Shown here: piece by piece, positions 19,648-62,107 of the stretch | How positions within the stretch are numbered: position 1 is the first letter of the stretch | Layout: every line of letters begins with the position of its first letter | DNA from: Limnohabitans sp. 2KL-51 | GTDB lineage: Bacteria > Pseudomonadota > Gammaproteobacteria > Burkholderiales > Burkholderiaceae_C | DNA: 64,000 nucleotides | Assembly (NCBI RefSeq): GCF_003063645.1 | Contig: NZ_NESJ01000001.1 | Location: 62,001 to 126,000 of the forward strand | Direction: 5' to 3' | Position numbers and translations under genes: made by a program | Notes under the pieces: generated by a model | The model's input: the letters and a program-made list of their open reading frames with translations, nothing else | What the model was told of the DNA's origin: nothing | Databases searched by the model: none

Positions 19648-19666
19648 AGTCCGGATTGCTTCGTAC

Positions 19667-19815
19667 CTCGCAATGACAGTTTTTTTGTCATTGCGAGGAG
19701 CGAAGCGACGCTTCAATCCATGCGCGCAGCGCTGCAATCCATGGATGGCTTCGTCCCTCGCCATGACGTTTCACTCGTCATTGCGAGGAGCGAAGCGACG
19801 CGGCAATCCATGCTG
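19667..19815. repeat. palindromic intergenic repeats, cluster 1
   Basis: Two hairpin units built from GTCATTGCGAGGAGCGAAGC and its inverted half (GCTTCGTACCTCGCAATGAC). The first has a poly-T loop (19680-19688). Half-elements ending CAATCCATG follow each unit. The cluster fills most of the 206-bp gap between the adhesin and the glycosyltransferase gene. The hairpin plus T-run may also stop adhesin transcription. Confidence 0.75.
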
Positions 19816-22067: not shown

Positions 22068-22193
22068 CGGGGGAGTGGATGGCTTCGTTCCTCGCCATGA
22101 CGGGGGAGTGGATGGCTTCGTTCCTCGCCATGACGGGGGAGTGGATGGCTTCGTTCCTCGCCATGACGGGGGAGTGGATGGCTTCGTTCCTCG
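22062..22193. repeat. 33-bp tandem repeat, four perfect units
   Basis: A 33-bp unit beginning CCATGACGGGGGAGTGGATG and ending TTCGTTCCTCG occurs four times head to tail (starting at 22062, 22095, 22128 and 22161), then degenerates into the palindromic element. Because 33 is divisible by 3, all frames stay open and give spurious ORFs. The unit is half of the neighbouring palindromic repeat plus a GGGGGAGTGG linker. The first unit overlaps the stop codon of the glycosyltransferase gene. Confidence 0.9.
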
Positions 22194-22386
22194 CCATGAC
22201 AGTTTTTTGTCATTGCGAGGAGCGAAGCGACGCTTCAATTCATGCGCGTGGCGCGGCAATACACCCCGTCATTGCGAGCGTAGCGTGGCAATCCATGGAT
22301 CGCTTCTTATCTCGCCATGATGGTTTCTTGTTAGTGCGAGCGGATGGAATCAACCTTCAAGCAGATGATCCCTTGGGTCATTGCGA
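22194..22386. repeat. palindromic intergenic repeats, cluster 2
   Basis: Contains CATGACAG-T6-GTCATTGCGAGGAGCGAAGC, then variant half-elements (GTCATTGCGAGCGTAGCGTGG, CAATCCATGGATCGCTTC). The last copy ends GGTCATTGCGAA, which doubles as the -35 region of the toxin-antitoxin promoter. No coding sequence is evident in the 22068-22415 gap. Confidence 0.7.
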
Positions 22387-23061: not shown

Positions 23062-23252
23062 GCCACGGTCTATGGCCTCGCGATGACGTTTCACTAGTAA
23101 TTGCGAGCGTAGCGCGGCAATCCTCCCCGTCATTGCGAGCGCAGCGTGGCAATCCATGGATTGCTTCGTTCCTCGCAATGACAGAAGCGACACGGCAATC
23201 CATATATGGCTTCGTTCCTCGCAATGACAGAAGCGACGCAAGTCCCTACACT
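23062..23252. repeat. palindromic intergenic repeats, cluster 3
   Basis: At least five half-elements: GCCTCGCGATGACG, TAATTGCGAGCGTAGCGCGG, GTCATTGCGAGCGCAGCGTGG, and CTTCGTTCCTCGCAATGACAG twice. They alternate in orientation and fill the gap between the antitoxin gene and the GIY-YIG gene. No coding sequence is evident. Confidence 0.75.
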
Positions 23253-23281: not shown

Positions 23282-23572
23282 ATGAAAAATCCGTGCGTCT
23301 ACATCATGGCTAGCCGGCGCCATGGCACGCTCTATGTGGGCGTGACCAGCCAACTCGGTGCGCGGGTCTGGCAGCACAAAAATGGGGTCACGCAAGGCTT
23401 CACCAGTCAGTACCGGGTGCATCAATTGGTGTGGTACGAACAGCATGAGACGATGGCCTCGGCGATCCTGCGTGAAAAGCAACTCAAGGCAGGCTCGCGG
23501 CAGCGCAAGATCGACCTGATTGAGGCGCTTAACCCGCAGTGGCTGGATTTGTACGAGCGTATGCTGGGCTGA
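23282..23572 (+). CDS. GIY-YIG domain protein (UPF0213/YhbQ type)
   Basis: 96 residues spanning one GIY-YIG domain: CVYIMAS near the N-terminus, GTLYVGVTSQL (the YIG part), the conserved Arg in ARVWQHK and the Glu in LREKQLK. These are the positions of the catalytic Tyr, Arg and Glu in the family. Small solo GIY-YIG proteins are thought to be structure-specific DNA nucleases, but their biology is poorly defined. A GGGAGG sequence lies about 10 bp before the ATG. It is flanked on both sides by palindromic repeats, and solo GIY-YIG genes embedded in repeat clusters might act on such hairpins (speculative). Confidence 0.85.
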   Translation: MKNPCVYIMASRRHGTLYVGVTSQLGARVWQHKNGVTQGFTSQYRVHQLVWYEQHETMASAILREKQLKAGSRQRKIDLIEALNPQWLDLYERMLG

Positions 23573-23725
23573 GATGGCTTCGTTCCTCGCCATGACGGGT
23601 TCATTGTCATTGCGAGCGCAGCGCAGCAATCCCCCCGTCATTGCGAGGAGCGCAGCGACGCGGCAATCCATATGCAAGTCGTGGCGATCCATGGATTTCT
23701 TCGTTCCTCGCAATGACATCGGCAA
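23573..23725. repeat. palindromic intergenic repeats, cluster 4
   Basis: Begins with GGCTTCGTTCCTCGCCATGAC right after the GIY-YIG stop codon, then GTCATTGCGAGCGCAGCGC, GTCATTGCGAGGAGCGCAGC and TTCGTTCCTCGCAATGACAT. The remaining 130 bp to the kinase gene show no clear feature beyond GGATATCC and GGATATCT motifs near 23765-23791. Confidence 0.75.
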
Positions 23726-49798: not shown

Positions 49799-52700
49799 TT
49801 AACCCATGCGTTGCAGTTGCTGGCGGATTTTGTCGAGTGTGGCGCCGAAGTCTGCCACACGCTTTTTGGTTTCGTCGAGCACCGCTGGCGGGGCTTTGGA
49901 CACAAAGGCCTCGTTGCCAAGCTTGGCGTTGGCCTTGGTGATTTCGCCTTCCAAGCGAGCGGCTTCTTTGGTCAGGCGGATTTTTTCTGCGGCGGCGTCG
50001 ACTTCGATGAACAGGCACAGGCGCGCTTCGCTCACCACGGCCACCGGTGCAGCTTGTGCCGCAGTGATCCATTCGGCTTCGGTGTCAAACACCTTGACCT
50101 CGCTCAGTTTGGCCAGTGACTGCAACACCGGCGCCACGCTTTGCATGTAAGTGGTGTCGCCCAGCACATACAGGGGCATGCGGGTGGCGGGCGAGACGTT
50201 CATCTCGCCGCGCAGGTTGCGGCAGGCATCCACCAGCGTCTTGAGCTTGGCCACATGGGCCTCGGCCGCTGTGTCGATGCGATCGGGTTGGCTCACGGGG
50301 TAGGCGGCGATGCTGACCGACTCACCCGGAAGACCCGCGACCACCGACACTTTTTGCCAGAGCTCTTCGGTGATGAACGGGATGATCGGGTGCGCCAAAC
50401 GCATGATGGTCTCGAGTGTGCGGATCAGTGTGCGACGGGTGGCGCGTTGTTGCGCGTCGTTGCCGGTGTTGATCTGCACCTTGGCGATTTCGAGGTACCA
50501 GTCGCAGAACTCGTTCCACACAAAGTCGTAAATCGTGTTGGCCACGTTGTCCAGGCGGTATTCGGCAAAACCTTTGGCCACCTCGGCTTCGACGCGTTGC
50601 AGGTGCGAGCTGATCCAGCGGTCGGCTTGGCTGAAGTCCATGTAGTCGTGCGCTGGGCCACCGGGTTGGCATTCAGCTTTGGTGTGCTTTTTCAAGCCGC
50701 AGTCTTGGCCTTCGCAGTTCATCAGCACAAAGCGGGTGGCGTTCCAGAGTTTGTTGCAGAAGTTGCGGTAACCCTCGCAGCGCTTGGAGTCGAAGTTGAT
50801 GCTGCGGCCCAAGCTGGCCAGGGCCGCAAAGGTGAAACGCAGCGCGTCAGCACCGTACGCGGGAATGCCTTCGGGGAATTCTTTTTCGGTTTGCTTGCGC
50901 ACCTTGGGGGCGGTCTCGGGCTTGCGCAGGCCCTGGGTGCGTTTGTCGAGCAATGGCTCCAAGGTGATGCCGTCGATCAGGTCCACCGGGTCGAGCACGT
51001 TGCCTTCGGACTTGCTCATCTTCTTGCCTTGGGCGTCGAGCACCAGGCCGTGGATGTAGACGTGTTTAAAGGGTACTTTGCCTGTGAAGTGCGTGGTCAT
51101 CATGATCATCCGGGCGACCCAGAAGAAGATGATGTCGTAGCCTGTCACCAGCACGCTGCTGGGGAGGTAGAGGTCGTAGTCTGTTCCGCTGGCGAGCGTG
51201 CCGGAATCGTTCTTGCCCATACTCGCTTCGCTCGCAAAGTCGCTGCGCCCGTTTCCGGCACGCTCGCCAGCTGCGTTGTGTGTGTTCTCGTCGTTGCCCC
51301 AGCCCATGGTGCTGAATGGCACCAGTGCACTGGAGTACCAGGTGTCCAGCACGTCTTCGTCGCGCTTGAGTGTTTTGCCGGGTGATACCTTGTCAGATTG
51401 TGCTTGCGCCTCGGCTTCGTTGCGGGCTACGTAAACCTTGCCGTCTTCGTCGTACCAAGCGGGAATTTGGTGGCCCCACCATAGCTGGCGACTGATGCAC
51501 CAGTCCTGAATGTTGTTCATCCACTGGTTGTAAGTGTTGACCCAGTTCTCGGGCACAAAGCTCACTTCGCCGGACTGCACCGCGTCGATGGCTTTTTGCG
51601 CGATGCTCTTTCCGGTGGCGTCGCCTTGGCCGACTTGGTTCATGGCCACAAACCATTGGTCGGTCAGCATGGGCTCAATCACCTGGCCGGTGCGGGCGCA
51701 TCGCGGCACCATGAGTTTGTGTTTCTTCACCTCGACCAAAGCGCCTGCTGCTTCGAGGTCGGCCACCACAGCCTTGCGGGCCACGAAGCGGTCAAGGCCT
51801 CGGTATTTTTCGGGTGCGTTGGTGTTGATGGTCGCGTCCAGATTCAACACGCAAATCAGGGCCAGCTTGTGGCGTTGGCCGACTTGGTAGTCGTTGGTGT
51901 CGTGCGCGGGCGTGACCTTGACCACGCCGGTGCCGAAGTCTTTGTCCACATAATCGTCGGCGATTACGGGGATGGTGCGGCCGCACAAAGGCAAGTTGAC
52001 CTGCTGGCCTATGAGGTGTTTGTAGCGCTCGTCTTCGGGGTGCACCATCACGGCCACGTCGCCCAGCAGGGTTTCGGGGCGGGTGGTGGCCACGGTCAGG
52101 CTGCCAGAGCCCGCAGCCGCAAGGCTGCCGTCCGGGTCCACCAAGTCATAACGGATGTGCCACATCGAGCCGTCTTCTTCGGCGCTTTCCACTTCAAGAT
52201 CAGACACCGCGCTTTGCAACACCGGGTCCCAGTTCACAAGACGTTTGCCACGGTAAATCAGGCCTTGCTCATACAGTTGCACAAAGGTTTCGGTCACGGT
52301 CTTGGACAGCTTGGGGTCCATCGTGAAGTATTCGCGGCTCCAGTCCACGCTGTCGCCCATGCGGCGCATTTGGCTGGTGATGGTGCTGCCGGACTCTTCT
52401 TTCCACTCCCAGACCTTGCTCACAAAGTTCTTGCGCGCTTCGGCCGGTGTGGGGCCCATGTCGTGGCGGCTGATGCCTTTGGCCTGCAACTGGCGCTCCA
52501 CCACGATCTGCGTAGCGATGCCCGCGTGGTCGGTGCCCGGAATCCAGGCGGTGTTGTGGCCCAGCATGCGGTGGTAGCGGGTCAACGAGTCCATGATGGT
52601 CTGGTTGAACGCATGGCCCATGTGGAGCGTGCCCGTCACATTGGGCGGCGGCAGCTGGATGGAGAAGGCGGGCGCGTCGGTCGTTGGCGCACCCGTTCCG

Positions 52701-52834
52701 CGAAAACCGGCCACGCCATAGCCGCGTTTTTCCCACTCGGGGCCCCAATGGGCTTCCAGGGCGGCGGGCTCGAACGATTTGGACAGGCTGTTTAAGCCAG
52801 GTTGTTCGAGGGGGATGGCGGGGGCGTTGCTCAT
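49799..52834 (-). CDS. valS: valyl-tRNA synthetase with an in-frame palindromic insertion
   Basis: 1,011 residues, against about 950 in E. coli. Class I motifs: HMGH at 71-74 (HIGH box) and KMSKSEGN near 605. The CP1 editing domain lies between, then the anticodon-binding domain and a C-terminal coiled coil ([20 protein letters not shown]). It charges tRNA-Val and edits Thr-tRNA. Residues 522-549 are encoded by an 84-bp stem-loop element not expected in the family; it lies just before the conserved [20 protein letters not shown]. The frame is intact, so the enzyme should be made, with an extra loop in the catalytic domain. Confidence 0.95.
51188..51271. repeat. 84-bp palindromic element inserted in frame within valS
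   Basis: GCTGGCGAGCGTGCCGGAA (51188-51206) and TTCCGGCACGCTCGCCAGC (51253-51271) are perfect 19-bp inverted arms around a 46-bp loop. The length is 28 codons exactly, and the element starts and ends on valS codon boundaries. The encoded peptide starts [12 protein letters not shown] and ends NDSGTLAS. The loop, read on the valS strand, holds TTTGCGAGCGAAGCGAGTA, similar to the TTGCGAG(GA)GCGAAGCGA core of the intergenic repeats at 19.7-23.7 kb. Confidence 0.85.
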
Positions 52835-61261: not shown

Positions 61262-62107
61262 TCAACTATCGCTGGATGCCCAAGCTTTTAAGGGATGGGC
61301 TTCCAAATTACTGCAAAGCCGGGCCAGAAAGAGGTCAGGGACCGAAACTTTCGTGGTGCTGTCCATGCAATGGGCAAACACGGCACTGCCGGAACCCGTC
61401 ATTCTGGATTTGAGACCGGCTTGGTTGAGGGCTTGAAGGGCTTGCTCAACACCGGGGCACAAAACCTGTGCAACGGATTGCAGATCATTGTGACCGAAGT
61501 CATATGTCTCTGCAGCGAAGAGCAAAATTGTAGCAGCGTTTGTGTCACGTTTGAGGTTTGGATGGGCAAAAATTTGAGAAGTATCGATGCCTTGGGGCGG
61601 CTTGACCACCCAAAACCGGGCGGCGGGCAGTTCAATGGGGGTGATTTTTTCTCCCACGCCTTCGACCCAGGCGTTGTGCCCACGCAGGAAAAATGGCACG
61701 TCTGCACCCAGTTGAAGTCCCAGCTTTTCCAGGGTGGGCAGATCCAGATTCAGGCCCCACAAGCGGTTGAGTGCCAGCAGGCAGGTGGCTGCATCCGAAG
61801 AGCCACCGCCCATGCCCGCTTGCGCGGGAATTTGTTTTTCAACAGCAATGTGCACGCCATCGGTGCAGCCGGTGTGGCTTTGAAGCAGATGCGCTGCGCG
61901 GGTGATCAGGTCCTGGGCGGGCAGGGCAAGGGTGAGGTCTTCGCGGCTGATGGCGCCACCGGGCCGTTTTTCAAAATGAAGTGTGTCGCACCAGTCGATC
62001 AGCATGAAGACCGATTGCAGTTCATGGTACCCATCGGGGCGACGGCCCGTGACGTGCAAAAATAAATTCAGTTTGGCCGGTGCAGGCACATCGTGCAGCG
62101 ATTTCAT
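61262..62107 (-). CDS. ispE: 4-diphosphocytidyl-2-C-methyl-D-erythritol kinase
   Basis: 281 residues. GHMP kinase: [20 protein letters not shown] at the N-terminus, the ATP loop [20 protein letters not shown], and GSGSAVFA near the C-terminus. It phosphorylates CDP-methylerythritol in the MEP isoprenoid pathway. It lies between lolB and tRNA-Gln, a conserved arrangement. Confidence 0.95.

Follow-up and report, generated by a model that had tools for sequence, protein, structure and literature searches.

The valS gene of Limnohabitans sp. 2KL-51 contains, in frame, an 84-bp hairpin belonging to a dispersed family that is found almost only in Comamonadaceae. The stems of these hairpins covary, the apex is better conserved than the sequence around it, including in a non-coding spacer, the core has been flipped in place, and wobble is tolerated on the apex strand. 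In the interpretation we consider probable, these are old palindromic repeats passed on mostly by vertical descent. Their apex strand would be selected in its folded form, their stems would be renewed in part by template switching, and the valS copy would be translated within a tolerant loop.

The window, i.e. the whole stretch of 64,000 nucleotides that was analysed, spans positions 62,001 to 126,000 of contig NZ_NESJ01000001.1. In window coordinates, the features are the following:

49799..52834, minus strand: valS, valine--tRNA ligase of 1011 aa, the host gene (NF004349 and TIGR00422, both above cut-offs)
51188..51271, minus strand: 84-bp hairpin element, codons 522-549 of valS, 28 residues (inverted arms, covariance model, folding z-score)
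51272..51278, minus strand: 5' foot, outside the hairpin, which fits (C)AACGCA (family profile)
51244..51271, minus strand: 5' arm on the coding strand, 28 nt (alignment to the family)
51215..51243, minus strand: 29-nt apex or core, GCGACTTTGCGAGCGAAGCGAGTATGGGC (family core pattern), corresponding to G000:C1:113215-113243 of the organism's own genome
51188..51214, minus strand: 3' arm on the coding strand, 27 nt (alignment to the family)
51182..51187, minus strand: 3' foot GGAACA, outside the hairpin, which fits GGAaAAC (family profile)

Recomputation from the window reproduced what the earlier note had described: perfect inverted arms of 19 bp (51188-51206 and 51253-51271) enclose 46 bp, for a total of 84 bp that starts and ends on codon boundaries and encodes residues 522-549. 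The hairpin far exceeds chance. With loops of up to 100 bp, the window holds 4 perfect inverted repeats of 16 bp and one of 19 bp, against none of either in 20 sequences simulated from it by a first-order Markov model. The folding z-scores of the 84 nt were -6.6 as RNA and -6.1 as DNA. The covariance model R1 assigned 84 bits to the valS copy, which is itself one of the 50 training rows of the model. Scanning the window stretch against Rfam 15 returned only MIR1437, with 26.7 bits for a gathering threshold of 168, and scanning 9 further loci returned only a tRNA located elsewhere.

The repeated part of the element is its apex. The arms, further copies of which the earlier note expected in related genomes, differ from locus to locus: the 19-mer arm occurs without mismatch in its own genome only at these two arms, the next best place having 2 mismatches, and a 16-mer of the arm was retrieved in 3 of 299 family genomes, its own included. 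The arms were thus ruled out as a repeat family. The family is instead defined by a near-fixed asymmetric apex of about 29 nt, GCGATTTGGCGAGCGNAGCGAGTATGAGC, carried by a stem of 27/28 nt that differs by locus and stays complementary. The standard unit of 28 + 29 + 27 = 84 nt is bounded by the feet (C)AACGCA|GC and GC|GGAaAAC. The window apex, GCGACTTTGCGAGCGAAGCGAGTATGGGC, shows 3 mismatches to the family core and contains GC-GAA-GC. Altogether, 94 copies were read in 80 of 117 stretches; 31 of them were flagged as valS, and among the unflagged ones L121, L124 and L163 are valS by their reading frame. The base located five positions before the apex is usually unpaired and is an A in 67 of 83 elements (a G in the window copy), and the apex is closed by a G-C pair in 39 of 50 copies and by a C-G pair in 10. 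Among 29 distinct copies retrieved with 3 mismatches allowed, inner apex base 16 was the most variable (C 15, A 13, T 1), followed by base 8 (G 22, C 5, T 2). Base 16 is the N of the GC-GNA-GC motif; its variability is a hint only, because the search pattern already left A/C open at this position. GNA mini-hairpins are described as stable DNA structures whatever the N (PMC4686876, in the part concerned with them). On our reading of the letters, the rest of the apex may fold with tandem G.A pairs.

Outward-facing pairs of copies are frequent, with 124-178 bp from core to core (L101, L116, L131, L140, L147), and are encountered inside valS too (L104, L113, L124, L157). Inward-facing pairs were seen in L133 and L153.

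Covariation of the arm helix was analysed on 50 aligned copies. Changes were observed on both sides at 27 of 29 pairs, and the covariation score was reached by none of 500 shuffles. Paired cells amounted to 90.2%, against 29.5-40.0% in slid registers, a figure favoured by the choice of rows, since 49 of the 50 had been selected for having the core together with 17 or more pairs in fixed register; the changes on both sides of pairs are not explained by this choice. The conservation of the apex is inflated since copies were gathered by core patterns, the coaBC-pyrG spacers and the valS loci of the family DNA search being the exceptions.

Copies recur at syntenic spots, in either orientation: mutL-bcr, murB-argG, coaBC-pyrG and recX-argC. 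The gene names were taken from one example each, and the Bcr-like transporter scored below the Bcr cut-off and above that of MFS_1. For coaBC-pyrG, 30 spacers were fetched through PyrG and not through the element, from the best 30 of 56 matching genomes (the L318 spacer was cut to 7 nt, and the start of coaBC escaped recognition in L306 and L333). The element was present in 8 of the 30 spacers. Among these 8 copies the identity was 95% in the core, 78 and 76% in the arms, and 58 and 60% in the 40-nt flanks; the apex is thus conserved in non-coding DNA. Between L331 and L307, for example, three Watson-Crick pairs were swapped for other Watson-Crick pairs, and one further change is one-sided. 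The stem score was 14-23 in 7 of the 8 copies and 7 in L320, which exhibits no long ungapped stem and harbours a second, degenerate core; it was at most 10 in the 22 spacers without a core. Loss at this spot seems to have occurred by deletion.

The valS site was compared across relatives by a family DNA search that matched 107 of 299 genomes, of which the 30 most similar loci were stored and 26 parsed. The linker measured at least 100 nt in 14 loci and was short in 12. In 13 of the 14 long linkers the folding z-score was -2.3 or lower, the remaining one, L029, having -0.2 (the shuffles were approximate). Several valS apices are divergent (L034, L037, L046, L047, L050). The alignment of the Limnohabitans enzyme with Thermus ValRS (1gax) breaks off after residue 515 and resumes at residue 552, opposite residues 472 and 475 of the chain, which places the insert in a short linker within the catalytic domain. 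The loop was placed by sequence against 1gax, a prediction from a shallow alignment (mean pLDDT 37.8) being of no use. The 28-residue insert is absent from the Thermus enzyme and from 12 of the 26 parsed loci, in line with the earlier note's view of a protein-coding palindromic element. Among the 118 proteins parsed from the 120 closest ValRS, 111 displayed the sense motif at one site. In the other 7, the linker measured 7 residues in two close relatives (P0114 and P0119), 18 in a third (P0117) and 28 in one, and three had variants of the motif.

The presence of the motif at a single site in these 111 proteins could speak for an adaptive insertion in ValRS, the 28 residues being what matters and the palindrome a by-product. 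We regard this as very improbable, as the valS copy shares its DNA apex with copies in spacers and in other proteins, close relatives make do with short linkers, and the peptide encoded by the valS stem varies freely between relatives. In the interpretation that we prefer, the element, in frame in the linker of the catalytic domain, is translated as 28 Ala/Ser/Gly-rich residues that ValRS can probably spare.

In-frame copies of 28 codons in phase 0 were found in valS, in DUF3025 (PF11227) and in ygiQ (PF08497). The encoded peptide resembles GDLASEASMS for sense copies and AHTRFARQIA for antisense copies. In DUF3025, the motif was present in 45 of 50 parsed homologs (out of 120 listed), P0348 and P0360 having a short version. 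In ygiQ, the insert was found in P0121, and P0122 is devoid of its tip. The sense copy is read in the same frame in two more ORFs of doubtful family, L097 and L145, for which the name of DNA methylase was discarded: L097 had no Pfam match and L145 only a sub-threshold one to MmeI_TRD. In P0132 and P0134, the peptide VRPELVEG, perhaps another coding repeat, fills the variable YgiQ linker in which L103 carries the hairpin.

Mismatches on the apex strand comprised 124 G.T against 31 A.C in 83 non-redundant elements, and 40 against 15 at 70% non-redundancy, the starting set being the 153 elements (out of 198) that have 15 or more pairs in fixed register; the ratio in slid registers was 0.87-1.44. 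The excess points to selection on a folded single strand, given that strand-symmetric mutation or pure template switching predicts no difference. Few data are available for copies antisense to genes: the G.T:A.C counts were 11:5 in antisense valS copies (n=4) and 12:1 in related copies antisense to mutL or bcr (n=7). Because the excess is independent of transcription, we favour single-stranded DNA over host mRNA as the folded form, RNA being possible.

This strand-specific tolerance of wobble, together with the strong covariation and the conserved apex, would also be expected of a functional RNA hairpin in the host transcript, acting on stability, processing or regulation of valS and other genes. 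Such a role appears unlikely to us, for both orientations occur at one site (L106/L192 and L166/L126), the G.T excess keeps its direction in antisense copies, the hairpin has been lost from valS in relatives, and Rfam yielded no match of such kind.

The orientation of the core can change at a fixed place. At mutL-bcr, L192 and L106 have near-identical flanks and arms, and the core is reverse-complemented in place. In L126 and L166, the element occupies one and the same position in DUF3025; the arms are similar, the cores face opposite ways, and both versions are in frame. Here, the sequences are less alike outside the element, and inversion of the core is likely. Chimeric hairpin arms occur in valS of P0096, P0097 and P0115, where the left arm of one allelic type is associated with the right arm of another, and also in L128. 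The hairpins of these three proteins look as if recombined through the common apex, as judged at the protein level only. Homogenization of arms and inversion of the spacer are reported as products of template switching (PMC8604942, in the part dealing with them), and multi-base compensatory change has been attributed to the same process (PMC8794818, likewise). The inversions, the chimeric arms and this published mechanism are the grounds for invoking template switching. In our preferred interpretation, the apex strand would be selected as a folded single strand, either ssDNA or RNA, the stem would be renewed partly by replication template switching between the arms, in which the spacer would invert too, and the pairing of the stem would be what is kept. 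Most copies would be old insertions passed on by descent and often lost through deletion.

To delineate the family, the apex pattern was searched with at most 3 mismatches and was present in 18 of 299 family genomes, a reversed control being found in none. The exact pattern was retrieved in 117 stretches of a wider sequence collection, whose record titles name Limnohabitans, Rhodoferax, Brachymonas, Hydrogenophaga, Polaromonas, Hylemonella, Comamonas and Ramlibacter; one Sulfuritalea MAG and one MAG labelled Gammaproteobacteria also carry the apex. Model R1 matched 45 of the 60 Limnohabitans genomes at E 0.01, each genome having 0 to 21 copies; at E 1e-6 it matched 42 of the 299 genomes of the family, which represent 26 of 141 genera. 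Under strict filters, from which weak copies may escape, it matched 5 of 300 genomes order-wide, one of them outside the family and weak, and 3 of 299 phylum-wide at E 1e-5, none of them outside the family. Two patterns had 0 matches in viral contigs, and a search of plasmids and phages with one copy returned no match. No clear pattern of concerted evolution of the core emerged from the match lengths in the 60 genus genomes, on which alone it was judged.

In its own genome R1 had 9 matches; besides valS, one is strong (85 bits) and lies in the spacer between the convergent genes fabI and a decarboxylase-like gene. Weaker relatives with a different apex (GCGATGTGGCAAAGCGAAGCGCCTCTGAGC) were noticed in the same genome: L216, L217, L219 and L222 (G000:C4, C2, C1 and C22). 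Among them L216, L219 and L222 adjoin terminator-like hairpins. In L220 (G000:C12:244359-244455), the stem continues into inverted terminator-like copies on both sides, making a foldback of well over 100 nt.

Some movement of the hairpin is likely. In one Rhodoferax MAG, L097 and L125 have the same whole stem, within a homology that extends about 400 bp leftward and stops 9 bp beyond the right end of the element. Moreover, L097:3467-3538 is a 72-bp half copy that retains left arm and core at 90% and lacks the right arm; an intact copy with the same left arm lies 1.5 kb away. Duplication or movement, and decay, thus occur at least in this MAG. Outside this case, a search for like-armed copies, covering those 153 of the 198 elements in which 15 or more pairs are in fixed register, gave 15 pairs with unlike flanks, which were judged from the flanks to be same-locus, tandem or inverted. 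One clean filled/empty pair was obtained (L322/L311); it differs by 102 bp with a 3-bp microhomology, which fits deletion equally, and no target duplication could be established from it. No partner enzyme was found in a survey of Y1_Tnp in 60 genomes and at the four Y1_Tnp loci fetched. The Y1 transposase gene was detected in 58 of the 60 genomes, including the element-free G299 and G309, and no core motif was detected near it in the four loci (L335-L338). RAYT was rejected as a partner on both grounds.

These data bear on the strongest of the alternatives, to which we give somewhat less than an even chance. The element would be a purely selfish repeat of the RPE, REP or MITE kind, which a transposase would mobilise in trans. 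Only copies with the pairing and the apex would have been mobilised, hence the conservation of both, and the copies would now be decaying. It would account for copies scattered at 0 to 21 per genome through 45 of the 60 Limnohabitans genomes and lying in frame in unrelated genes, as well as for the stem-sharing copies and the half copy of the Rhodoferax MAG, and a Y1 transposase gene is at hand in nearly all of the surveyed genomes. Against it, most arms are specific to their locus, changes are compensated between orthologous copies, and the 30 coaBC-pyrG spacers yielded no long stem lacking a core; the Y1 gene, too, has the distribution and the surroundings just described.

We also venture, as a speculation that we would rather doubt than defend, that the family represents a new class of strand-specific folded nucleic-acid site. 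Its near-invariant apex would consist of a GC-GNA-GC mini-hairpin and an internal loop, recognised as ssDNA (or RNA), independently of transcription, by a putative factor of the Comamonadaceae; the stem would be arbitrary provided that it pairs, and the site would flip in place and occupy recurring chromosomal places, some of them in essential genes where it would be translated. Whatever its role, the natural set of copies makes stem turnover, core inversion and strand-specific selection measurable at orthologous sites in coding and non-coding DNA, and allows testing whether hairpins persist through folded-strand selection, template switching or both.

The window contains other repeats, at 19.7-23.7 kb, which the earlier note had proposed as kin of the valS loop. 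There are 14 matches with at most 3 mismatches to GTCATTGCGAGGAGCGNAG, at window positions 19659-19795, 22083-22227, 23164-23228 and 23578-23717. The kinship was not confirmed: the valS-family model scores 30.8 bits at 23569-23664, against 84 for the valS copy, and the clearest of these repeats read CGTCATTGCGAGGAGCGAAGCGACGCGGCAATCCA, i.e. CGTC...CCA. On the low score, the CGTC start and the CCA end, we rejected a single family, a remote link (rough E 3.8e-6 for the 30.8 bits) being possible. CGTC REPs begin with CGTC, end with CCA and are mainly reported from alphaproteobacteria, according to the relevant part of PMC3733652. The repeats at 19.7-23.7 kb look like this other, CGTC family.

Finally, the hairpin can be compared with known systems. 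The portions of the open-access literature that describe such repeats did not yield a description of the fixed-apex, free-stem design. GTAG/CGTC REPs, as characterised in part of PMC3733652, are likewise hairpin repeats that occur singly or as dimers, sometimes in genes. In contrast, they measure 20-40 bp and have a fixed foot tag, whereas the present hairpin has 84 bp, a fixed apex and a free stem, and neither a GTAG nor a CGTC tag is present in its profile feet. The REPtron arrangement, in which copies flank a RAYT gene, was not seen at the four Y1_Tnp loci. Template-switch hairpins share with our family arm homogenization, multi-base compensatory change and spacer inversion, also in coding DNA; in the parts of PMC8794818 and PMC8604942 devoted to them, they concern RNA genes, as well as short repeats within yeast genes, and are not presented as dispersed families whose apex is near-invariant.

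Among the repeats described in these hosts, the closest is BRE, the beta-proteobacterial repeat element of 2011, whose Comamonadaceae hosts include Rhodoferax, Polaromonas, Acidovorax, Delftia and Verminephrobacter (PMC3110155, host section). Like the hairpin, it is GC-rich and of similar size (75-91 bp in Bordetella), and it is usually intergenic with some copies within coding sequences. It differs in being defined by a sequence identity above 70% and in being often tandem with few or no bases in between, and the passages describing it mention neither a hairpin, nor a reading frame, nor stem variability (PMC3110155). The core words that we tried were not in the main text of that paper. Part of the hairpin family may thus already bear the BRE name, the two being set apart by description only.

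In behaviour, the element looks like a Rickettsia palindromic element (RPE), as the earlier note had proposed. RPE are palindromic, lie in frame in unrelated genes and give a peptide in one frame (PMC10969869, in its RPE section), and the present hairpin is absent from Thermus and from 12 of the 26 valS loci, in frame in DUF3025 and ygiQ, and recurrent in related genomes. The expected recurrence of the arms did not stand. RPE are moreover about 150 bp long (PMC10969869, same section), against 84 nt here, and the conserved apex on a locus-specific covarying stem belongs to our hairpin, the two having been compared by description only. The hairpin resembles RPE in how it works, and it extends in-frame coding palindromes, which in the account of a review are unusually frequent in Rickettsia, to free-living freshwater bacteria.
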